Below, in pieces: positions 20,882-42,834 of a stretch of DNA of 64,000 nucleotides (positions are counted from its first letter, which is position 1; the number at the start of each line of letters is the position of its first letter). This stretch comes from Pseudoxanthomonas indica (GTDB lineage: Bacteria; Pseudomonadota; Gammaproteobacteria; Xanthomonadales; Xanthomonadaceae). Under the pieces are notes generated by a model. The model saw only the letters and a list, made by a program, of their open reading frames with translations, did not search any database and was not told where the DNA came from. The position numbers and the translations under genes were made by a program. The DNA lies in contig NZ_FUZV01000002.1 in NCBI RefSeq assembly GCF_900167565.1, positions 744,001 to 808,000 on the forward strand, given 5' to 3'.

Positions 20882-23545
20882 TCACGCCGCCTGCCGCGGC
20901 CGCTGGAACGCGACCCGCTCCGGCCGATGTAGCGCCATTCCCTGCCCGTAGTCCACGCCCAGTTCGCGCAGGGCCTGCACCACGCTCATGCTGCCCACCC
21001 ATTCGGCCACCACGCTCAAGCCGCGCTGATGGCCGATCTGCGCAATCGCGCTGACGATGGTGCGGCTCATCGCATCCACTTCCAGATCACGGATAAAGCT
21101 GCCGTCGATTTTGATCACATCCACCGGCAGGCTTTTCAGGTAGCCGAACGAGGACATGCCGGCGCCAAAGTCATCCAGCGCGATCCGGCAGCCGACCGCG
21201 CGCAGCCGCTCGACGATGCCGACCACCTTGAGCAGGTTGCGCACCGCCACCGTCTCGGTGATCTCGAAGCACAGGCGTGATGGCTCGATGCCATGCTCGC
21301 CAATCAGCGCCAGGATGTAGTCGGCCAGGCCCTCGTCCTCGATGCTCGCGCCGGACAGGTTGATGGCGCATTGCTGCAGCCCGCGACCTTCGGCGTGCAC
21401 GTCCGACAGATGCGCCAACGCCGTGCGGATCACCCAGCGATCCACCATCGGCATCAGGCCATAACGCTCGGCGGCCGGCAGGAACGCGCCCGGCAAAACG
21501 ATGCGGCCATCCTCATCGCGCAGGCGCAGCAGCAACTCGATGCGCGCGCCTTCTTCGTTGCGGCCATCCAGCGGCACGATCTCCTGGTAGTCCAGCAGCA
21601 GGCGGTTTTCCTCCATCGCCCAGCGCAGCCGGTTGGCCCACTCCATCTCGCCGTAACGGCGGGTGGCTTCGTCGTCCTCGCTGTACAGGTGGACGCGGTT
21701 GCGACCGTTTTCCTTGGCCACGTAGCAGGCGGTATCCGCCCACGCCATCAAGTCCTTCAAGGTCGGGTCGCCGTGTTCCACCACCACCACGCCGATGCTG
21801 GCGCTGACGGTGTAGGTGCGCTCCTGCCAGACGAACATCTGCGATTCGATGCAGGTGCGCAGGCGTTCGGCCAGGGCGCGCGCGCCGGCCATGTCCAGGT
21901 CGAAGGCGAGCAGGCCGAACTCGTCGCCGCCCAGACGGGCGAGGGTATCGTCGCCGCGCAACTGCAGGCGCATCGCCAGCGCCAGTTGCGCCAGCAGCTG
22001 GTCGCCGGCGGTATGGCCGGAGATGTCGTTGATCAGCTTGAACTGATCCAGATCGATATAGAGCAGCGCGCACGGGCGACCGCCGCGGCGGCGCTCGGAC
22101 AGGGCCTGCTCGATACGGCGTTCGAACTCGCGGCGGTTGAACAGTTCGGTCAACGCGTCGTGGCTGGCCTGGTAGCTCAGGCGTTCGGTCAGCTCGCGCT
22201 GTTCGGAGATGTCGGTGGCGACCATCAGCAGGCGCACTTCGTCTTCCAGCTCGACCCGTGCGATCGACGCATTGGCCCAGAATTCCAGGCCACCCAGGCC
22301 AATCATCTGCGCTTCCACGTTGACCCAGTAGTCGCCGCTGTTGACCGGCTGGCGCACGCGTTCGCGCAGTTCGGCATCGGCGAACAACGCGGTGAGCGGC
22401 ACGCCGGCGGACACCACGTCGCCCAGCCGCAGTCGCGCCGCCTGGTTGGCGTAGAGGATGCGGCCTTCGCCATCGGACAGCAGCACCAGCGCCGGCAGCA
22501 GTTCATTGAGGGTGCGGAAGCGCGCTTCGCTTTCACGGAAGCGGGCGCTCATCTCGTGGCCCAGGTCGAGGGCACGGCGACGCATGGTGGCCAGTGACCA
22601 CAGCAGCAGCGCCATCAACACGCTGATGGTGATGCCCGCGCTCAGGATCACTTCCAGCCGCGCCTTGTCCTGGACCATCGGACGCGACATCAGATGCAGT
22701 TCCCAGCGACGTCCGCCGAAATCAAGCTCCTGCCGATAGCTCTGAGCATCGGGGGCGACCGCAGCCAGTGAATCGAAGAACGGCGCCTCATCGGCACGGC
22801 CCATGTCGCGCACACTGACGCGGAAGGCGTCGAGCACTTCACCACGCAAGGCATCGCGAATCAGCGGCGCCAGCCGCAGGCTGACCGCCAGTGCGCCCAT
22901 CTCGCGCTCGCGGCGCTCCAGCAGGCTGGCCGGCTGCACGCCATCGGAGTACACCGGCAGGCGGATGGTGATGCCCAACGGGTCGCGATGGCGCGGCAGG
23001 CCCTGGCGCAGCACGAACGGCGCCGAGAGCGTGGCGGCGTTGCTGTCGCGCGCGCTTTCCAGCGCCTGCAGGTTGTCGCGTTGACTGGCGATGTCCAGGC
23101 CCAGCAGCACTTCGTTGCCCTGCATGGGCGTGATGTATTCGTAGCGGTAATGTGCGCGGCCGTGTTCGTCGGCGGCACGGCTGGCAAAGGCGGTGGCCAC
23201 GCGTGCCGGACCGATGCGCTGGCGCTGCAGGTTCTCGGTGACCTGGTTGAACCGCTCCTGGTCCATCCGGTCATTGGCCAGGAACACCGTCTGCATGGCG
23301 CGCAGTTCCGAGGCCACGGTTTCCAGCGGCTGGCGCAGTTGCAACACGGCAGCGTGGGCGAGGGCACGCCGCTGCGCTTCGCTGTTGGCCTGCAGTTCGC
23401 GCCACTCGCGCTGTGCCAGCCAGGCGGTGAAGGCCAGGCCGGTGAGCAGCACCACGGCGGCCCAGGCCACCGGCGGAAAGCCCAGCAGGCGGCGTCCTTC
23501 ATCCATGCGCAGGCAGGGAATCTGGGGGAACTGTCTGGAGATCAT
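20882..23545 (-). CDS. CHASE-PAS-GGDEF-EAL bifunctional c-di-GMP protein
   Basis: An 887-residue membrane sensor: TM1 (about residues 22-40), a periplasmic CHASE domain (about 60-280) with ITPMQGNEVLLGLDIASQR, TM2 (about 300-320), a PAS domain (about 345-460), a GGDEF domain with intact LGGDEF near residue 540 preceded by the inhibitory-site motif RGDD, and an EAL domain (about 620-880). The EAL signature reads ELL, but the metal and catalytic residues are present in INLSG, EITET, LDDFG, KIDGSF and AEWV. Both activities may therefore be retained. The CHASE domain implies sensing of an outside ligand. Starts at 23545 and 23506 are both possible. Confidence 0.9.
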   Translation of the reverse strand: MISRQFPQIPCLRMDEGRRLLGFPPVAWAAVVLLTGLAFTAWLAQREWRELQANSEAQRRALAHAAVLQLRQPLETVASELRAMQTVFLANDRMDQERFNQVTENLQRQRIGPARVATAFASRAADEHGRAHYRYEYITPMQGNEVLLGLDIASQRDNLQALESARDSNAATLSAPFVLRQGLPRHRDPLGITIRLPVYSDGVQPASLLERREREMGALAVSLRLAPLIRDALRGEVLDAFRVSVRDMGRADEAPFFDSLAAVAPDAQSYRQELDFGGRRWELHLMSRPMVQDKARLEVILSAGITISVLMALLLWSLATMRRRALDLGHEMSARFRESEARFRTLNELLPALVLLSDGEGRILYANQAARLRLGDVVSAGVPLTALFADAELRERVRQPVNSGDYWVNVEAQMIGLGGLEFWANASIARVELEDEVRLLMVATDISEQRELTERLSYQASHDALTELFNRREFERRIEQALSERRRGGRPCALLYIDLDQFKLINDISGHTAGDQLLAQLALAMRLQLRGDDTLARLGGDEFGLLAFDLDMAGARALAERLRTCIESQMFVWQERTYTVSASIGVVVVEHGDPTLKDLMAWADTACYVAKENGRNRVHLYSEDDEATRRYGEMEWANRLRWAMEENRLLLDYQEIVPLDGRNEEGARIELLLRLRDEDGRIVLPGAFLPAAERYGLMPMVDRWVIRTALAHLSDVHAEGRGLQQCAINLSGASIEDEGLADYILALIGEHGIEPSRLCFEITETVAVRNLLKVVGIVERLRAVGCRIALDDFGAGMSSFGYLKSLPVDVIKIDGSFIRDLEVDAMSRTIVSAIAQIGHQRGLSVVAEWVGSMSVVQALRELGVDYGQGMALHRPERVAFQRPRQAA

Positions 23546-23937
23546 GTCGCTCACGCGCCATACCTGCCCGTCGGCTCCGCTGCCGGCAGCGAGCGCATCA
23601 ACCGGGCGCCCGCCTGCTCGGCCGGGCGGCCAGTGTGGGTCGGCGTGGCCTGCGTGTCGACCCGGTCCGCCGGAGTCCCCGCACAACAGGCCGCAACTTG
23701 TGCCCCCATGGGTTCTCCTCGTGGTCACGTCAGAGCGGATATCGGCGCGACGACGGCCGACTTGAGCGTCCGGTTCAGGGAGTTGATGCCGGGCCCGGCC
23801 GTGGCCGCGCCCGGCAGCGTGTCCAGCGCGCCGGCGTAATTTCCGTAACAGAGTCAACACATCCGCCGCGCCGCCGCATGCCTCGGCACGTCGGCGCGGG
23901 TATGCTCGCCGCCAATCGTGTCCGGAGGGATGCAACG
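23546..23937. other. 392-bp intergenic region, no convincing gene
   Basis: Divergent promoter region between the CHASE-GGDEF-EAL gene and the MoaD-like gene. Reading frames that cross it are low-complexity Arg/Pro/Gly-rich antisense-type frames. An AT-richer patch near 23838-23855 (TTTCCGTAACAGAGTCAAC) is the likeliest promoter area. No RNA gene or strong hairpin was recognised. Confidence 0.5.
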
Positions 23938-24231
23938 ATGGCCAAGGTGGTTTTGGCGCCTGCGCTGACGCGTTGGCTGCCGGCCGCGGCGAATCACTCG
24001 CCGGGCGAACTGGCCTTGCAGGTGGCCGGCGCCGACGTCGGCCAGGTGCTGCAGGCCGTCTTCCAGACCCATCCGGGCTTGCGCGGCTACGTGCTGGACG
24101 AGCAGGGGGCGGTGCGCCATCACGTGGCCGTCTTCGTGGATGGCCAGGCATTGCAGGACAAACGCGACCTGCGCCAGCCGGTGGCCGCCGATGGCGAGGT
24201 CTATGTGATGCAAGCCCTGTCGGGAGGCTGA
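23938..24231 (+). CDS. MoaD/ThiS-like ubiquitin-fold sulfur-carrier protein
   Basis: A 97-residue beta-grasp protein that ends in Gly-Gly (QALSGG), the C-terminal signature of sulfur carriers such as MoaD and ThiS, which are thiocarboxylated there. The HHVAVFVDGQALQDKRDL segment and the VYVMQALSGG ending match the family. It stops one base before the start of a BNR-repeat gene, so the two are surely co-transcribed. There is no molybdopterin or thiazole gene nearby, so its partner pathway is unknown. The ATG at 23938 has a GGAGGGA ribosome site. Confidence 0.88.
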   Translation: MAKVVLAPALTRWLPAAANHSPGELALQVAGADVGQVLQAVFQTHPGLRGYVLDEQGAVRHHVAVFVDGQALQDKRDLRQPVAADGEVYVMQALSGG

Positions 24232-24232
24232 G

Positions 24233-25330
24233 ATGGCCGATCATCTGCTGGTGTCTTCGCGCAAGGGGCTGTTCGTGCTGGCGCGCGGTGATCGCGACTG
24301 GCGCATCAGCCACACCGCGTTCCTGGGCGACAACGTGGCGCTGGCCCTGGCGGATCCGCGTGATGGCAGCTGGTATGCCGCGCTGGATCTGGGCCACTTC
24401 GGCGCCAAGCTGCATCGCTCCACCGATCAGGGCCGCAGCTGGAATGAAATCGCCGTGCCGGCCTTCAGCGAAGGCGATGAAGTCGCGGTGGGCGACGGCA
24501 AGCCTGCGCAGCCGGCGACCCTGCGCCTGATCTGGTCGCTCGAACCTGGCGGCGCGGACGAGCCGGGTCGCCTCTGGGCCGGGACGATCCCCGGCGGACT
24601 GTTCCGCTCCGATGACCATGGCCAGCACTGGGAACTGGTGCGCGGGCTGTGGGATTGTCCCGAGCGCAAGCAGTGGTTTGGCGGCGGCTACGATCAACCC
24701 GGCATCCATTCCATCTGCGTGGATCCGCGTGATTCGCGCAGCCTGCGCATCGCGGTATCCACCGGCGGGGTCTGGCACAGCGAAGACGGCGGTGCGCATT
24801 GGCGACAGACTGCGCACGGCATGATTGCGCGCTACATGCCCGAGGGCCAGCAGGAGGATCCCAACCATCAGGACGTGCATCGCATGGTGCAGTCGCCGGC
24901 GCGGCCGGAGGTGTTCTGGGCCCAGCATCACAACGGGGTGTTCCGCAGCCACGCCAACGGCGCGGACTGGCACGAGATCCAGGTGCCGCCGTCCTCATTC
25001 GGATTTGCGGTGGCGGTGCATCCGCATGAGCCGGATACGGCGTGGTTCGTGCCGGCGGTGAAAGATGAAAAGCGCTATCCGGTCGATGCTGCGCTGGTGG
25101 TCGCGCGCACGCGCGACGGCGGGCGCAATTTCGAGATGCTGCGCCAGGGTCTGCCGCAGGAAGCTTCCTATGATCTGGTCTATCGACATGCGTTGGCCGT
25201 CGACGACAGCGGTGATCGCCTGGCGTTTGGATCCACGACCGGCGGGTTGTGGACCACCGACGATCAAGGGGAACACTGGAATACGCTGTCCGCACGACTG
25301 CCACCCATCCACGCGGTGACCTTTGCCTGA
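24233..25330 (+). CDS. BNR/sialidase-type beta-propeller protein
   Basis: A 365-residue soluble protein without a signal peptide, built from BNR (Asp-box) repeats: STDQGRSWNEI, SDDHGQHWELV, SEDGGAHWRQT, TRDGGRNFEML and TTDDQGEHWNTL. It is a seven-bladed-propeller type fold related to sialidases and exo-acting glycosidases, but the arginine triad and other sialidase active-site residues are not evident. The conserved segments FGGGYDQPGIHSICVDPRDSRS and FWAQHHNGVFRS are typical of a cytoplasmic subfamily linked to MoaD-like proteins. Function unknown. Confidence 0.88.
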   Translation: MADHLLVSSRKGLFVLARGDRDWRISHTAFLGDNVALALADPRDGSWYAALDLGHFGAKLHRSTDQGRSWNEIAVPAFSEGDEVAVGDGKPAQPATLRLIWSLEPGGADEPGRLWAGTIPGGLFRSDDHGQHWELVRGLWDCPERKQWFGGGYDQPGIHSICVDPRDSRSLRIAVSTGGVWHSEDGGAHWRQTAHGMIARYMPEGQQEDPNHQDVHRMVQSPARPEVFWAQHHNGVFRSHANGADWHEIQVPPSSFGFAVAVHPHEPDTAWFVPAVKDEKRYPVDAALVVARTRDGGRNFEMLRQGLPQEASYDLVYRHALAVDDSGDRLAFGSTTGGLWTTDDQGEHWNTLSARLPPIHAVTFA

Positions 25331-35524: not shown

Positions 35525-37972
35525 ATGAAACCGCACAGCGTGCAGTCATTCCCCGTTCGTTCCTTACCCACGCGCCCAGGCCGATCCTGGCAGCTTCGCG
35601 TGAGCATGCTGTTGGCATTGCCGCTGCTGGCCTGGTCGGCGGATGCGTGGAGTCAACAGGCTTGTGATGGCCCGATACCCGGTGGTGTCGCCTCCGGCAC
35701 GTTGGCTTTTGCCTGTGGCAACAACGCACAGGCGTCAGGCAACGGCGCCAACGCCATCGGATCGCAGGCGGTGGCGCAGGGGCAGGGCGCCAGTGCGGTG
35801 GGTGGCTGGTTCGACGCCAACAACAATGGCGTGCTCGATCCCGGCGAGACCGTCAACGCGGTGGGCATCGGCGCGACCGCAGTGGGGGCAGGCGCCAACG
35901 CAGGCCAGAATCGCGCCACCGCGCTGGGCGCCGGCAGTGTGGCCACTGCCGACAGCGCCACGGCGCTGGGTACGCAAGCCAGTGCGCAAGCGATCAACAG
36001 CGTGGCGTTGGGCAACAACGCCACGGTCAGCGCGATCGCCAACAACGGCATCGCCATCGGCAATGGCAGCAACAGCAACGGCGATGCCGCTGCGGCGCTG
36101 GGCAACAATGCCGCCGCCACCGGCGTGGGTGCGATGTCGTTCGGCGGCGGATCGATCGCCAACGGCGAGGGCGCCACGGCGTTCGGCCTGAATGCCAACG
36201 CCAGCGGTTTCTCCTCCGTGGCCATCGGCGCGCAGAGCACGGTTTCGGCAGACGCTGGCACGGCCGTGGGGAATTTCGCGCAAGCCACCGGCATTGGCGC
36301 GTCTGCGTTGGGCTACGATGCGCGCGCCACCACGCTCGGAAGTACCGCCATCGGTGGCGGTGCGCGCGGACAAGGCGAAAGCAGCACCGCCCTCGGTGCG
36401 CTGGCCGAAGCCTTGAACACCAACACCATCGCCATCGGCTTCCAGTCCACCGCCGCCGGCACCAACAGCATCGTGATGGGCACCAATGCCGAAGTGACGG
36501 CCGCCGGCGTCAACGGCATCGCCATCGGCAATGGCAGTCGCGCCGACAACCAGGACGCCACCTCGGTCGGCACCGGCGCCGACGCCAATGGCCAGAACAG
36601 CGTGGCAGTCGGCACCAATGCGCAGGCGCTGGGTCCGAACGCGAGTGCGATTGGCGACACCGCAGTCGCGCAGGGCAGCAACTCGGTCGCGCTGGGCAGT
36701 TCGGCGCGCGCCACCGGCAATGTCAGTACCGCACTGGGCCAGAACACGGTCGCCTCCGGTACCCGCAGCGTGGCGCTCGGCCAATCGGCCGATGCCACCG
36801 CCACTGATTCGCTGGCGGTGGGCAACAATGCGCAGGCCACGGCCACCGATGCGGTTTCGCTGGGACGCGCGGCCAACGCGGCGCAGGCGTCGAGCATGGC
36901 GCTGGGCACCACCGCGTCCGCCACGGCGGTGAACTCGGTCGCGTTGGGCGCGGGCTCGCTCGCGGATCGCGCCAACAGCGTGTCGGTGGGTACCGCCGCC
37001 TCGCAGCGGCAGATCATCAACCTCGCCGCCGGCGTGCAGGGCACCGACGCGGTCAACGTGTCCCAGCTCAATCCGCTTGCGCTGGCGCTGGGAGGCGGGT
37101 CCAGTTATGCAGGTGGCATCTTCACCGCGCCGACGTACGTGATCCAGGGCGCCAGCTACACCAATGTCGGTGCGGCGTTTGCTGCGGTGGATACGCAACT
37201 GAGTGTGTTGGGCCAGCGCATCGACGACATCGCGCTCACGCCGGGCCCGCAAGGGCCGGCCGGACCGCAGGGCCCTGCAGGTCCGACGGGTCCGACGGGT
37301 CCGCAGGGCCAGGCCGGCGATGATGGCGCGCAGGGACCGCAGGGACCCCAAGGTCCGCAAGGACCGCAAGGTCCCGGGGGCCCGGGTGGCGGCACCGATG
37401 AGCTGGCGGTGGGTTACGACAATGACCAGCGTCGCCAGATCACCCTGCAAGGGGATGGCGGCTCGCGCATCGGCAACGTCGCCGATGGCGTGCAGGCCGG
37501 CGATGCGGTCAACCGTGGACAATTGGACGCGGCGCGCACCGCCGCCACCAGCAGCGCGCAGCAGTACACCGATGCCCGCGAAACCGAAATCCGCAATGAC
37601 GTCGCCGCCGGTGATGCGGCCACGCTGACCTCGGCCAACGCCTACACCGATGCGCGCTTCCAGCAGGCCGTGGCCGCACCGATGGCGGCCATCGACGACC
37701 TGCGTTCCAACATGGAATGGCGCTTCGAAAAGACCGATCAACGCATCGAACGCCAGGGCGCCATGAACGCCGCCATGCTGACCATGGCCACCAGCACGGC
37801 CGGCGTACGCACGCAGAACCGCGTGGGCGTGGGCGTGGGCATGCAGGGCAGCGAACAGGCGTTGTCGGTGGGCTACCAGCGGGCGATCTCCGATCGCGCC
37901 ACGGTGACCTTCGGCGGTGCGTTCAGCGGTTCGGAAAGCTCGGCCGGCGTCGGTGTGGGCTTTGGTTGGTAG
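35525..37972 (+). CDS. Trimeric autotransporter adhesin (YadA-like) with collagen-like stalk
   Basis: An 815-residue type Vc autotransporter. A long signal peptide (to about residue 44) precedes a head made of ~14-residue YadA/Hep-type repeats with the alternating A[IV]G and NAxA pattern (about 60-500). An EF-hand-like loop [12 protein letters not shown] occurs at residues 97-108. A neck ([17 protein letters not shown]) is followed by a Gly-X-Y collagen-like stretch (about 573-624, [13 protein letters not shown]...), a helical stalk with a second neck ([14 protein letters not shown]) and the YadA anchor ending in VGFGW. It assembles as a trimer and should mediate attachment. Confidence 0.93.
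37243..37395 (+). repeat. Collagen-like Gly-X-Y repeat tract within the adhesin
   Basis: About 16 consecutive Gly-Pro-Gln/Thr/Ala-type triplets with an acidic break (GDDGAQG). In DNA this is a run of related 9-base units (GGTCCGCAAG-like) and could change in number by recombination. Trimeric autotransporters and collagen both need three chains, so the tract can form a triple helix. Confidence 0.85.
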
Positions 37973-38008
37973 TAGGCTGTGCTGGTACCTGCCCACGAGG
38001 AATCCACG

Positions 38009-38413
38009 ATGCGCCCCCACGCGTTGACGTTGTGCCTGTTGTCCATCGCCTTGTTGCCCGCCTGCCAGCGCGCCACCGCGCCCGCGACCGAAACGGCAGC
38101 CGCCCCCGCCAGCCCCACCGCGGCCGCTGCGCCTACCGAGCCGAGCATTCCCGAGCAGCAGGGCGAGGCGACCACGTACCTGTACCAGTGCCAGGAACTG
38201 GCGGTCACCGCCACCTTCCATGGCGAGGGCGATGCGGACCTGAGCTTCAACGGCCGCGTGCTGAAGTTGCCGCATGTGGTGGCGGCGTCCGGCGCACGCT
38301 ATGCCGATGCCGACGGCAACGAGTTCTGGAGCAAGGGCCAGGCCGAGGCCCTGCTCACGCTGGCAGGCGAAGCGCCGCGATCCTGCGCCGGTCCGGGCGC
38401 CAATCCGGCCTGA
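38009..38413 (+). CDS. MliC-like lipoprotein (C-type lysozyme inhibitor family)
   Basis: A 134-residue lipoprotein with lipobox LLPAC (about residues 16-20), an Ala/Thr/Pro-rich spacer, and a domain (about 60-130) with the pattern YLYQCQELAVTATF...DLSFNGR...LPHVVAASGARYADADGNEFWSKG, like MliC/PliC inhibitors, in which a Ser/Lys pair blocks the lysozyme active site. The SGARY and SKGQA segments fit those positions. It may protect against host or predator lysozyme. Its start follows the adhesin stop by only 36 bases. Confidence 0.78.
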   Translation: MRPHALTLCLLSIALLPACQRATAPATETAAAPASPTAAAAPTEPSIPEQQGEATTYLYQCQELAVTATFHGEGDADLSFNGRVLKLPHVVAASGARYADADGNEFWSKGQAEALLTLAGEAPRSCAGPGANPA

Positions 38414-38437: not shown

Positions 38438-38464
38438 TAAAGTTCAGCCCGGGCACGCCGATAC
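38438..38464 (+). promoter_or_regulatory. Flagellar sigma-28 (FliA) promoter
   Basis: TAAAGTTC, an 11-base spacer and GCCGATAC match the sigma-28 consensus TAAAGTTT-N11-GCCGATAA at 14 of 16 defined positions with exact spacing. It points at the GGDEF-EAL gene at 38546, giving an RNA start near 38471 and a ~75-base leader. The match is seen directly; use by FliA is inferred. Confidence 0.82.
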
Positions 38465-38468
38465 AGCG

Positions 38469-38504
38469 TCGACATGTCGAGTCCGTCGGCCGGGGAGCCG
38501 ACGG
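38469..38504 (+). promoter_or_regulatory. Palindrome and leader hairpin downstream of the sigma-28 promoter
   Basis: TCGACATGTCGA (38469-38480) is a perfect 12-bp palindrome at the expected transcript start, and CCGTCGGC/GCCGACGG (38483-38504) forms an 8-bp hairpin with a 6-base loop just after it. They may stabilise or regulate the leader. They do not match the GEMM c-di-GMP riboswitch. Confidence 0.5.
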
Positions 38505-38545
38505 CACAGGGAAGTCGTTCCATCCAGGCATCGTAGGGGTGCGAT

Positions 38546-41002
38546 GTGGGCAAGCAGCGGACCAGTGCGGGTTCCGACGGCGCCACCGACAGCGGTGGTC
38601 AGCGCCTGCCCGGGCGCGTGGCCGCGATCATCCTGTTCTCCGCGCTGGGCGCCATGCTCACCGCGACCGTGCTGGAAGTGCAGGCCGGCGCCACCGCCTA
38701 CATCGTCGGCGAGAGCCATTGGTCCAAGGCGCAGCAGATCGCCGTGTCCAGCCTCTACCGCTATGTCAGCCACGGCGACCAGGCCGATCTGGACAGTGCG
38801 CGCGAGGCGCTCAAGGTGCCCCTGGGTGATCGCAAGGCGCGGCTGGCGCTGGATCGCCAGCCCATCGATTACCCGGCGGCCGAGCAGGGCTTCTTGCAGG
38901 GCGGCAACGCGCCGGCCGACATCGGCCGGATGATCCGCATGTACCGCCTGTTTGCACACGCGCCGTTCTTCCGCGATTCCGTGCAGCGCTGGCGCCAGTC
39001 CGATGCCGGCATCCTGTCGCTGGTGGCGCTGGCCGATCATCTGGAGCAGCGCTCTCGGGCCGGCGCGCTGGATGATTTCGACGTCGGCCATTACCAGCGC
39101 CTGCTGCTGGAAACCGATGAGCGCCTGCGTGCGTCGGAGCTGGCGTTCTCGCAGTCGCTGGTGGACGGTTCGCGCTTCCTGCGCATGTCGCTGATGATCC
39201 TCAGTGTGATCGCCTTCTTCGCCCTGGCCTGGTATTCGCTGGCGGTGATGCGGCGCACGCTGTTGCATATCCGTCGCACCGAATCCGAATTCCGCGCCGC
39301 CTTCCACCAGGCCGCGGTGGGCATGCTCAAGCTCGATGGCGAAGGCCGCTTCACCCAGGCCAATGAAGCGCTGGCGCAAATCCTGGCCTGGCCCTTGACC
39401 GAGCTGCGCCGGCAGCGGCTGGGCGACATCCTGCATGCCGAGGATCTGCATTTCGATGTCCACGGTCGAATCGACTGGAAGCGGATCATCGAACCCGGCG
39501 AGCGCCGGCTTCGACGCAGCGACGGCAGCAGCCGCTGGGTGCGCTGGAGTGCGTCGATCATCACCGGCCAGGATCCGGAAGGTTCGCGCGTCTTTGCCGT
39601 GGTGGAAGACGTGTCCGAGGCGCGCGAGCTGGCCAGCGAGATTGCCCACCAGGCAAGCCACGATGATCTGACCGGCCTGATCAACCGCCGCGAGATCGAA
39701 CGCCGGCTCGGCCATGTCACCGCCAACGTACAGCGCGACCGTGCGCATCACTGCCTGTGCTTTGTCGATCTGGATCAGCTCAAGCTGGTCAATGACACCT
39801 GCGGCCACGCCGCCGGCGATCGCTTCCTGCGCCAGTTCGCCAATGGCCTGGGTTCGAGCCTGCGCAGCGAGGATTGGGTCGGCCGCTTGGGCGGCGACGA
39901 ATTCGCCATCTTCCTGGCCGGCGCCGATCTCGAGGTGGCCGAAAAGGTCGCCCAGCGCATCCACACGCGCCTGGCCCAGTCGGCCTTCCACTGGAACGAT
40001 CGCAAGTTCGGCCTGGGCTGCAGCATCGGCATCGTCGAGATCAACGCCGACACCACCGATGCCGACTGGCTGCTGCGCGCCGCCGACACCGCCTGCTACC
40101 TGGCCAAGGAAGAAGGCCGCAACCGCATCCGCTGCTACCGCGAAACCGACGAGGCCTTTGCCCGTCGCCAGACCGAGCTGGACTGGGTGGCGCATATCCA
40201 GTTGGCCATCGCCGAGGATCGCCTGCTGCTGTACGCGCAGCGGATCAAGCCGCTGCGTGGTGAGCCGCGCCTGCAATACGAAGTGCTGGTGCGCATGGTC
40301 GACCACGAAGGGCGGATCTACTCGCCGGGCTACTTCCTGCCGCCGCTGGAACGCTACGGCCAGGCGATGATTCTGGATCGCCATGTGCTGGCCAGCACGC
40401 TGGCCCAGCTCAGTCGCGACACCCGCCATCTGCTCTGCCTGGACCTGTGCCATATCAACGTGTCGGCGCAATCGATAGCGGATCCACAGTTCCGCCGTTT
40501 TGCCGCCGAGCAACTCGATGCGCATCCGGGCGTGGCCAACAAGATCTGCTTCGAGATCACCGAGACCGCGGTGATCGGCAACCTCGGCGATGCCTGCCTC
40601 TTCATCGAGGCGATGCGTGCACGCGGTTGCCGGATTGCGCTGGATGATTTCGGCAGCGGCCTGTCCTCCTTCGCCTACCTGAAGAGCCTGGACGTGGACA
40701 TCCTGAAAATCGACGGCGCCTTCATCCGCGATCTGGGCCAGGACAATGTCGATCTGGCGCTGGTGCGTTCGATGAGCCAGGTGGGACGCGCGCTGGGCAA
40801 GCGCACCATCGCCGAATGGGTCGAGAACGAGGCCGCCCTGGCCAAGCTGGACGAGGTGGGGATCGACTGCGTGCAGGGCTATGCCATCCATGCGCCGGCG
40901 CCGCTGTCCACGCTGATCCGGGAGTGGAAGACCCTGCACCTGGACGTGCACGCGCCGGCGCTGCTGGCCTCGCCCGGTCCCGCGGCCCTGTTGCCCGGCT
41001 GA
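38546..41002 (+). CDS. PAS-GGDEF-EAL c-di-GMP protein under a flagellar-type promoter
   Basis: An 818-residue membrane protein starting with GTG. TM helices at about 25-45 and 215-238 enclose a helical periplasmic region; PAS (about 255-375), GGDEF (about 390-550; RLGGDEFAIF with the inhibitory motif RSED upstream) and EAL (about 560-800) follow. The EAL signature is EVL (YEVLVRM), and NVSAQS, EITET, LDDFGSG, KIDGAF and AEWVEN are intact. Both domains may be active. A near-perfect sigma-28 promoter precedes it, linking it to the flagellar regulon. Confidence 0.92.
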   Translation: MGKQRTSAGSDGATDSGGQRLPGRVAAIILFSALGAMLTATVLEVQAGATAYIVGESHWSKAQQIAVSSLYRYVSHGDQADLDSAREALKVPLGDRKARLALDRQPIDYPAAEQGFLQGGNAPADIGRMIRMYRLFAHAPFFRDSVQRWRQSDAGILSLVALADHLEQRSRAGALDDFDVGHYQRLLLETDERLRASELAFSQSLVDGSRFLRMSLMILSVIAFFALAWYSLAVMRRTLLHIRRTESEFRAAFHQAAVGMLKLDGEGRFTQANEALAQILAWPLTELRRQRLGDILHAEDLHFDVHGRIDWKRIIEPGERRLRRSDGSSRWVRWSASIITGQDPEGSRVFAVVEDVSEARELASEIAHQASHDDLTGLINRREIERRLGHVTANVQRDRAHHCLCFVDLDQLKLVNDTCGHAAGDRFLRQFANGLGSSLRSEDWVGRLGGDEFAIFLAGADLEVAEKVAQRIHTRLAQSAFHWNDRKFGLGCSIGIVEINADTTDADWLLRAADTACYLAKEEGRNRIRCYRETDEAFARRQTELDWVAHIQLAIAEDRLLLYAQRIKPLRGEPRLQYEVLVRMVDHEGRIYSPGYFLPPLERYGQAMILDRHVLASTLAQLSRDTRHLLCLDLCHINVSAQSIADPQFRRFAAEQLDAHPGVANKICFEITETAVIGNLGDACLFIEAMRARGCRIALDDFGSGLSSFAYLKSLDVDILKIDGAFIRDLGQDNVDLALVRSMSQVGRALGKRTIAEWVENEAALAKLDEVGIDCVQGYAIHAPAPLSTLIREWKTLHLDVHAPALLASPGPAALLPG

Positions 41003-41041
41003 TCCGGCCAAAGCGGCGCGCGGATGCCGGATAATGGCGGC

Positions 41042-41761
41042 ATGACGACCCGCCTCAACAAGCACATCGCCGAATCCGGCTTCTGTTCCCGCCGCGAGGC
41101 CGATCGCCTGATTGCCGAGAAGCGGGTCACCGTCAACGGCCAGCCCGCCGGCATGGGCGCGGTGGTGGGCGAGGACGACGAGGTCAAGGTCGACGGCCAG
41201 TCGCTGCGCGCGCGCACGGCCAAGGCGGGCAAGCGCAAGCACGTGTACATCGCGCTCAACAAGCCGGTGGGCGTGACCTGCACCACCGAGAGTTCGGTCA
41301 AGGGGAACATCGTCGACTTCGTCGGCCACGAGCAGCGCATCTTTCCGATCGGCCGGCTGGACAAGGATTCCGAAGGCCTGATCCTGTTGACCAGCAATGG
41401 CGACATCGTCAACCAGATCCTGCGTGCCGAGAACCGCCACGAGAAGGAATACCTGGTGGCGGTCAACAAGCAGGTCACCGATGAATTCCTGCGCGGCATG
41501 GCCCGCGGCGTGCGCATCCACGGGCAGATGACGCTGCCCTGCAAGACCGCGCGGCTGGCCAAGTTCGGCTTCCGCATCGTGCTGACCCAGGGCCTGAACC
41601 GGCAGATCCGCCTGATGTCGGCCGAGTTTGGCTATCGGGTGACCCAACTGCGCCGCGTGCGCATCGACAACCTCAAGCTGGGTGCGCTCAAGCCCGGTCA
41701 GTGGCGCAATCTGACCGACGCCGAACTGCGCGCCCTGTTGCCTGCACATACCGACTGGTAA
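41042..41761 (+). CDS. rluF: 23S rRNA pseudouridine synthase (RluF-like)
   Basis: A 239-residue RNA-modifying enzyme: an S4 domain (about 4-60, TTRLNKHIAESGFCSRREADRL) and a RsuA/RluB/E/F-type catalytic domain with the aspartate in PIGRLDKDSEGLILL. The late segments EKEYLVAV and LTQGLNRQIRLM are typical. RluF makes pseudouridine at position 2604 of 23S rRNA. Length is shorter than E. coli RluF because the C-terminal tail is absent. The gene follows the GGDEF-EAL gene by 39 bases and leads into the GAF-GGDEF gene. Confidence 0.9.
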   Translation: MTTRLNKHIAESGFCSRREADRLIAEKRVTVNGQPAGMGAVVGEDDEVKVDGQSLRARTAKAGKRKHVYIALNKPVGVTCTTESSVKGNIVDFVGHEQRIFPIGRLDKDSEGLILLTSNGDIVNQILRAENRHEKEYLVAVNKQVTDEFLRGMARGVRIHGQMTLPCKTARLAKFGFRIVLTQGLNRQIRLMSAEFGYRVTQLRRVRIDNLKLGALKPGQWRNLTDAELRALLPAHTDW

Positions 41762-41766
41762 CTGCC

Positions 41767-42834
41767 ATGGGAAAACCGCTTCCGCCCGCCAACGAAGAAG
41801 CCCGCCTGGCCGCGCTGCGCAGTTTCGACATCCTCGATTCCGCGCCGGAGCAGGGCTTCGATGATCTGGTGGTGATTGCGGCCGGCATCTGCGCGGTGCC
41901 GATGGCCTCGGTCAGCCTGATCGACCGCGACCGTCAATGGTTCAAGGCGCGGCTGGGGCTGGATGATGCGGAAACGATCCGCGACACCTCCTTCTGCGCG
42001 CATGCGATCCTGACCCCGCAGGCGATTACCGTGGTCAACGACGCCACCCAGGATGCGCGCTTCTCCGACAACCCGCTGGTGATGGACGAGCCGGGCATCC
42101 GCTTCTACGCCGGCGCGCCGCTGGTCAGCCAGGAAGGCTTCGCGCTGGGCACGCTGTGCGTGATCGACAAGCAGCCACGGCAATTGGAACACTTCCAGCT
42201 GCAGGCGCTCGAAGCACTGTCACGCCAGGTCACCCATCTGCTGGAAATGCGCCGGGTCAGCCGCGCGCTGAGCCTGCAACTGCGCGAACGCGAGTGGTAC
42301 GAGCAACAGCTGCAGCACTACCAGCACGAGCTGGAACAACAGAATGCCGACCTGGCCGAGCAGACCCGCACCGATCCCCTGACCGGCCTGCCCAATCGCC
42401 GCGCGTTCTCGGTGGCGTTGGCCACGGCCATCGACAAGGCCATGGCCAGTGGCGATGGCTTTGCGGTGGCGGTGCTGGACGTGGATCACTTCAAGACCGT
42501 CAACGATGTGCATGGCCATGACGAAGGCGATCGCGTGCTGGCGGCCTTGTCGGATCTGCTCAAGGCACAGTTTGCCGGCCGTGGCATGGCCGCGCGCTAT
42601 GGCGGCGAGGAGTTCGTGATCCTGATGCCGGGCACTTCGCTGGAAGAAGCGCGGCTGCTCTGCGAATACGTGCGCGAATCGGTGGGGCTGCTGTCGATGG
42701 GCCTGCCGATTTCGGTGAGCATCGGCCTGACCGGCTTCCGTCGCGGCGACGCGCCGGATGATCTGTTCAAGCGCGCCGATGCGGCGCTGTACGAGGCCAA
42801 GCGCAACGGTCGCGACCGGGTCAGCTGCGGCTGA
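41767..42834 (+). CDS. GAF-GGDEF diguanylate cyclase
   Basis: A 355-residue soluble protein. A GAF domain (about 20-165; SLIDRDRQWFKARLGL, SFCAHAIL, FYAGAPLVSQEGFALGTLCVID) is joined by a coiled-coil helix (about 165-215) to a GGDEF domain with the active motif YGGEEFVIL and TDPLTGLPNRRAF at its start. The product-inhibition RxxD motif is absent five residues before GGEEF, so feedback control may be lost. It starts six bases after rluF. It should make c-di-GMP in response to a GAF ligand. Confidence 0.92.
   Translation: MGKPLPPANEEARLAALRSFDILDSAPEQGFDDLVVIAAGICAVPMASVSLIDRDRQWFKARLGLDDAETIRDTSFCAHAILTPQAITVVNDATQDARFSDNPLVMDEPGIRFYAGAPLVSQEGFALGTLCVIDKQPRQLEHFQLQALEALSRQVTHLLEMRRVSRALSLQLREREWYEQQLQHYQHELEQQNADLAEQTRTDPLTGLPNRRAFSVALATAIDKAMASGDGFAVAVLDVDHFKTVNDVHGHDEGDRVLAALSDLLKAQFAGRGMAARYGGEEFVILMPGTSLEEARLLCEYVRESVGLLSMGLPISVSIGLTGFRRGDAPDDLFKRADAALYEAKRNGRDRVSCG

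Follow-up and report, generated by a model that had tools for sequence, protein, structure and literature searches.

About 0.5 Mb from the flagellar genes found in its genome, a string resembling a promoter for the flagellar sigma factor FliA (sigma-28) precedes a gene for a PAS-GGDEF-EAL protein. Does this arrangement tie the turnover of c-di-GMP to flagellar assembly? The window analysed here (the whole 64-kb stretch, C2:744001-808000 of a 3.96-Mb genome) carries the string TAAAGTTC-N11-GCCGATAC at 38438-38464, 81 nt 5' of the GTG start of the 818-aa reading frame. FliA-controlled c-di-GMP enzymes are already known (YhjH, BifA and Legionella lpp0952), and the window gene would be a new example. 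Judging from sequence comparisons, the site is very probably a working sigma-28 promoter. We further consider it likely, with good confidence, that through this promoter the gene belongs to the late, FliA-class part of the flagellar regulon and that its RbdA-like product lowers c-di-GMP.

A near-consensus sigma-28 site upstream of the gene

The site and the gene behind it comprise the following predicted features:

38438..38445, plus strand: sigma-28 -35 element TAAAGTTC; exact core TMAAG-N14-GCCGAT in 18 of 20 fliA-positive genus orthologs
38446..38456, plus strand: 11-nt spacer, variable among orthologs (~0.5 bits per column versus 1.7-1.8 in the boxes)
38457..38464, plus strand: sigma-28 extended -10 element GCCGATAC, from sequence and ortholog alignment
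38535..38539, plus strand: probable ribosome-binding site AGGGG, from sequence; also in relatives G001, G015 and G022
38546..41002, plus strand: RbdA-like PAS-GGDEF-EAL protein of 818 aa whose N-terminal region is helical (Pfam, structure model, alignments)

The E. coli sigma-28 consensus is TAAAGTTT-N11-GCCGATAA. The window site combines a TAAA-type -35 box, a GCCGATAA-type extended -10 box and the 11-nt spacing, matching 14 of the 16 consensus letters. An earlier note on this DNA had described the site as near-perfect and unlikely to arise by chance, and both statements held: the exact string occurs once in the 64-kb window (0 copies expected from 100 shuffles), and no score above 12 of 16 turned up when the 460 bp surrounding the start were simulated 20,000 times with a Markov-1 model. 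When up to two mismatches were allowed in TAAAG-N14-GCCGATA, the window returned 4 matches against 1.13 expected; thus, only the near-perfect match is informative, and weak matches mean little.

The site falls within the 132-bp gap between the end of an MliC-like gene (38413) and the GTG at 38546, which begins six nt past the AGGGG. A small stem, CATCG/CGATG, holds this Shine-Dalgarno sequence in its loop (38529-38546, plus strand). Three close relatives share it with the window, which is too small a set for assessing it as an element.

Two further features of the leader had been put forward in the earlier note:

38469..38480, strand undefined: palindrome of 12 bp, TCGACATGTCGA, at about the predicted start of the transcript; not seen by eye in relatives
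38483..38504, plus strand: leader hairpin with an 8-bp stem; stability not clearly above shuffles

The palindrome can be read in the sequence, although the scan that gave the hairpin did not list it, but inspection by eye found it in none of 20 other aligned sites, and we rejected it as an operator at the transcript start. Likewise, the stem of the supposedly stable hairpin exists, but its stability is unremarkable: folding of the 90-nt leader gave z = -1.53 relative to shuffles, and 55-nt leaders of 20 orthologs averaged z = -0.61, with 2 of 20 below -1.5. The hairpin was therefore also dismissed as a special leader element. Neither feature adds anything to the reading of FliA control.

The same sites mark flagellar and chemotaxis genes elsewhere in the genome

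Among named genomes of the collection, Pseudoxanthomonas members are the nearest relatives of this genome, with 80-81% protein identity. The genome encodes a FliA protein scoring above the family cut-off (C2:1318564). The genome-wide search that the earlier note had called for returned six exact TAAAG-N14-GCCGATA sites in 3.96 Mb, compared to two for a letter-reversed control. Besides the window site, the other five all lie within C2:1279524-1299876, 5' of flagellar or chemotaxis genes and ~0.5 Mb off, in line with the claimed distance between the window gene and the flagellar genes found. The genes behind these five sites are CheV-like (CheW-plus-receiver), FlgM-like (two sites), MCP and CheW. 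The FlgM-like ORF is 102 aa long and followed by a FlgN-like ORF, both named from appearance and position rather than by a profile. Relaxing the pattern to TMAAG-N14-GCCGATR yielded 18 sites versus 7 for the control. Nine of the 18 fall in the flagellar region, including one 5' of a MotA-like gene, one 5' of an 871-aa PAS-PAS-GAF-GGDEF-EAL gene and one 5' of a 152-aa ORF. The TCAAG variant, too, starts sites 5' of flagellar genes in this genome.

The site is conserved with the gene in fliA-positive genomes of the genus

Our genus sample comprised 38 genomes, of which 28 had a FliA over the cut-off and ten had none over it; three of these ten (G014, G020 and G024) are 89-94% complete. In the fliA-positive set, the exact pattern occurred 124 times and in 26 of 28 genomes (letter-reversed control: 16), while the ten fliA-negative genomes held 0 sites (control: 9).

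Orthologs of the window gene at no less than 53% identity were retrieved from 22 of the 38 genomes (20 fliA-positive, two fliA-negative); with at most 26 candidates scored per genome, eight of the 28 fliA-positive genomes had none at this threshold. All 20 fliA-positive orthologs carry the N11 site, at 11-14 of 16 letters, a result matched by 0 of 5000 permuted consensuses. By chance, a score of at least 11 was reached by 225 of 20,000 simulated regions, and by none of 176 coding stretches that were each 440 bp long. Eighteen of the 20 orthologs have an exact TMAAG-N14-GCCGAT, with G036 and G021 each one core letter off; within the ortholog regions, it was found neither at other spacings from N8 to N20 nor on the opposite strand. 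Sites of the main clade combine TCAAG with, mostly, GCCGATGA. Across 21 sequences (including G232, see below), information amounted to 1.8 bits in the -35 core, 1.7 in the extended -10 and ~0.5 in the spacer and flanks; since these sites had been selected for a high score, it is the permutation test that measures conservation fairly, and not information content.

By comparison, neither of the two fliA-negative orthologs (G005 and G020) has the site upstream, G020 showing a 10-letter match at N10. These orthologs are among the more diverged (49-53% identity), so that site loss and divergence are partly confounded, and all site counts treat related genomes as independent. Within 1.5-kb flanks of the 20 fliA-positive loci, the upstream neighbour is a GGDEF gene in 15 cases, MliC in four and neither of these in the remaining one; the promoter has been kept with the gene and not with its upstream neighbourhood. 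Taken together, the sites at other flagellar and chemotaxis genes, the conservation among orthologs and the absence without fliA support the claimed FliA control. The promoter and its link to fliA thus rest on comparative sequence, from which we infer transcription in vivo.

Probable FliA control beyond the genus, and a possible second promoter

We also searched 395 genomes of the family, scoring two candidates each and accepting homologs at E 1e-160 or better. A homolog was found in 85, of which 64 lie outside the genus, and all 64 upstream regions were read. The site is present in G232, a fliA-positive genome of another genus (g11). It is absent from four g16 genomes, as is fliA, and from the region upstream of the gene in G077 (76% complete, no fliA found), where an 11-letter string far upstream (-476) lacks GCCGAT. 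In g17, a degenerate TACAG-N14-GCCGYTA precedes the gene in 34 of 34 cases, and fliA was found in 6 of 6 genomes tested. A sigma-28 site that has diverged is one possible reading, for which the evidence is weak, as the flanking sequence is well conserved too. In g29, the core is missing from all 24 upstream regions, and the 3 genomes tested have fliA; best scores were 8-11, the 11 (G343) coming without AAG or GCCGAT. Presence of fliA was thus looked up in nine of the 58 g17 and g29 genomes. A family-wide Fisher test (21/21 versus 0/7) omitted g17 (34) and g29 (24), and the pattern is mixed once they are included, so that we give this test no weight. FliA control therefore appears as a trait of the genus (20 of 20 fliA-positive versus 0 of 2 fliA-negative orthologs) that extends to some neighbours without covering the family as a whole.

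The gene could also be under dual control, the sigma-28 site being real and adding to a housekeeping promoter, with FliA only boosting a basal level. This alternative is compatible with a working sigma-28 promoter and does not exclude it; we regard it as possible but rather doubtful. There is precedent in Pseudomonas putida, where the bifA study reports that deletion of fliA cuts transcription only about twofold and that two starts were mapped (PMC5300878). Moreover, a sigma-70-like TTGAGW/TACATT pair is discernible by eye in the four fliA-negative g16 orthologs, and the leaders of G001, G015 and G022 contain TTGCGT-N17-TAAGGT. However, the 81-nt leader in the window offers no clear sigma-70 pair by eye.

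The gene encodes an RbdA-like protein with an intact EAL site

Pfam profiles, applied to eight ORFs of the window, placed the PAS, GGDEF and EAL domains of the 818-aa protein all above their cut-offs. Among solved structures, RbdA (PA0861) of P. aeruginosa comes closest to it both in sequence (residues 257-788, E 1.6e-113) and in fold, and has the same domain order; the EAL domain is 42-43% identical to that of RbdA, compared to 30% for BifA. The alignment covered 29 sequences, drawing on 28 of 30 other ortholog loci (L094 and L095, where the match runs across a stop codon, were left out; 55 g17 and g29 genomes, fetched upstream only, are absent from it). Residues E579, N638, E670, D700, D701, K721, E757 and Q777 are invariant, as is GGDEF at 449-453, orthologs from fliA-negative genomes included. 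We take the EAL residues among these to have their customary catalytic roles. The EAL motif itself reads E-V-L in the window protein, and the I-site pair R440/D443 (RxxD) is intact, its R being nearly invariant in the 29 sequences. An AlphaFold model (pTM 0.40, and hence read for within-domain features only) predicts a long helical N-terminal region at residues 21-253 with, by eye, hydrophobic ends, which we read as two probable membrane helices flanking a presumed extracytoplasmic sensor.

Downstream of this gene and upstream of the site lie the following neighbours:

37979-38413: MliC-like lysozyme-inhibitor gene, ending 5' of the site
41024..41761, plus strand: RluF-like 23S rRNA pseudouridine synthase, after a 21-nt gap
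41701..42834, plus strand: GAF-GGDEF probable diguanylate cyclase, after rluF (Pfam, locus comparison)

With rluF found downstream on the same strand in all 22 genus ortholog loci, it is perhaps cotranscribed with the PAS-GGDEF-EAL gene, and the GAF-GGDEF gene is a possible third member of the transcript. On the other side, a YadA-like trimeric autotransporter adhesin gene (35525-37972, plus strand) adjoins mliC; this adhesin was seen in the genome of the window alone, among 31 loci with 1.5-kb flanks and three named relatives with 6-kb flanks.

Known enzymes point to a probable phosphodiesterase favouring swimming

YhjH of E. coli is a stand-alone EAL enzyme, in contrast to the window protein with its PAS and GGDEF domains. 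It fits the proposed role in that this phosphodiesterase is under FliA and promotes motility (as cited in PMC5300878 and PMC4866697). For BifA of P. putida, a c-di-GMP phosphodiesterase, FliA control is described as established: the gene is partly transcribed from an upstream sigma-28 promoter, and its product lowers c-di-GMP and aids swimming (PMC5300878). The window protein differs in that its closest match is RbdA rather than BifA. Expression of bifA is lower in a P. aeruginosa fliA deletion mutant (PMC4866697), an effect that, as the P. putida study reports, was thought to be possibly indirect; according to that study, the region ahead of bifA in PAO1 yielded no sigma-28 consensus (PMC5300878). 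Legionella lpp0952, a gene with PAS, GGDEF and EAL domains, is listed among FliA-dependent genes (PMC5655016); it belongs to another lineage.

By architecture, the nearest parallels are RbdA and PdeB of Shewanella, PAS-GGDEF-EAL proteins in which GTP on the GGDEF domain governs the phosphodiesterase (PMC9061725). Loss of rbdA raises c-di-GMP and lowers swimming (PMC7148300). In contrast to the control proposed for the window gene, and as a point against it, rbdA is nearly unchanged in a P. aeruginosa fliA mutant (-1.05 fold; PMC4866697), and FliA goes unmentioned (0 occurrences) in the PdeB paper (PMC9061725). Given these descriptions of RbdA and PdeB, the likeliest output of the window protein is a phosphodiesterase favouring swimming, and a bifunctional enzyme is also possible. 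From RbdA homology and the FliA-controlled phosphodiesterases elsewhere, we infer this net direction and an effect on motility, which would fit the tuning of motility against attachment that the earlier note presumed. A literature search on the Xanthomonas family or Pseudoxanthomonas, FliA and c-di-GMP gave, among the matches listed and judged by title and the start of the abstract, none that dealt with the window gene or described a sigma-28 promoter for any relative of RbdA; subscription journals were mostly outside its scope.

It is unlikely that FliA drives the gene but that net c-di-GMP synthesis, or the downstream GAF-GGDEF protein, dominates, preparing cells for attachment and not for swimming. 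The intact GGDEF motif and RxxD I-site would permit synthesis, and the GAF-GGDEF gene lies beyond rluF in the same orientation; PA2072, which has the domain structure of RbdA, is reported to have the opposite phenotype (PMC7148300), and one table labels RbdA itself a DGC (PMC4866697). Set against this, no EAL catalytic residue is replaced in any of the 29 aligned sequences, and c-di-GMP hydrolysis by RbdA is reported to set in upon GTP binding, with c-di-GMP rising when RbdA is lost (PMC9061725, PMC7148300). Chance similarity devoid of function is highly improbable: the letter-reversed control does give two sites in a genome of this size, but the site recurs at fixed spacing in every fliA-positive genus ortholog and is absent from orthologs in genomes without fliA.

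Completion of the hook-basal body leads to export of FlgM and thereby frees FliA. If the site is the sigma-28 promoter that we propose, freed FliA would transcribe the filament, motor and chemotaxis genes and, from its distant site, the PAS-GGDEF-EAL gene. The enzyme made would have two probable membrane helices enclosing the helical N-terminal region, a PAS domain, an intact GGDEF domain with its I-site, and an EAL domain whose active site is complete. On the model of RbdA, GTP on the GGDEF domain and sensor input would set the activity of the EAL phosphodiesterase, and newly flagellated cells would lower c-di-GMP and swim.

If so, the Xanthomonas family would offer an example, open to testing, of a direct route from flagellar assembly to c-di-GMP turnover, for which related fliA-negative genomes that have the enzyme and lack the promoter would be natural controls. 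Such a case would further suggest that lineages differ in which phosphodiesterase family (YhjH, BifA or an RbdA relative) they have put under FliA.

Other c-di-GMP and chemotaxis genes

A second GGDEF-EAL gene resides in the flagellar cluster (C2:1293962-1296577; L010:11963-14578, minus strand). This is the 871-aa PAS-PAS-GAF-GGDEF-EAL gene; counted from the first base of its TCAAG-N14-GCCGATA, the start of its longest ORF is 116 nt away. A PAS-GAF-GGDEF-EAL relative in G027 (L165) has an exact site, with 72 nt from the first base of that site to the start of the ORF; its ORF runs beyond the fetched stretch, and the two proteins are 57% identical over 626 residues. Two GGDEF-EAL genes hence appear to be tied to FliA in the genus, the second as seen in two genomes. 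More broadly, the FliA checkpoint might run a small c-di-GMP module of the RbdA-like gene (perhaps with the GAF-GGDEF cyclase) and the flagellar-cluster gene, such that hook completion would reset c-di-GMP, the promoter being kept through changes of upstream neighbour and replaced by housekeeping-type control where fliA is missing. We hold this extension tentatively, as somewhat short of probable.

Three further genes deserve mention. An HDOD-GGDEF gene (L168:716-1999, plus strand; C1 ~626.6 kb) is preceded by TAAACTTT-N11-GCCGATAC, one letter off the exact pattern. Outside the flagellar cluster, an MCP gene (L169:212-2347, plus strand; C2 ~1112.3 kb) has TCAAG-N14-GCCGATA on its 5' side and is perhaps a FliA-class chemoreceptor. 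Finally, the window contains another c-di-GMP enzyme, a 1363-aa ORF with CHASE, PAS, GGDEF and EAL domains (20882-24973, minus strand).
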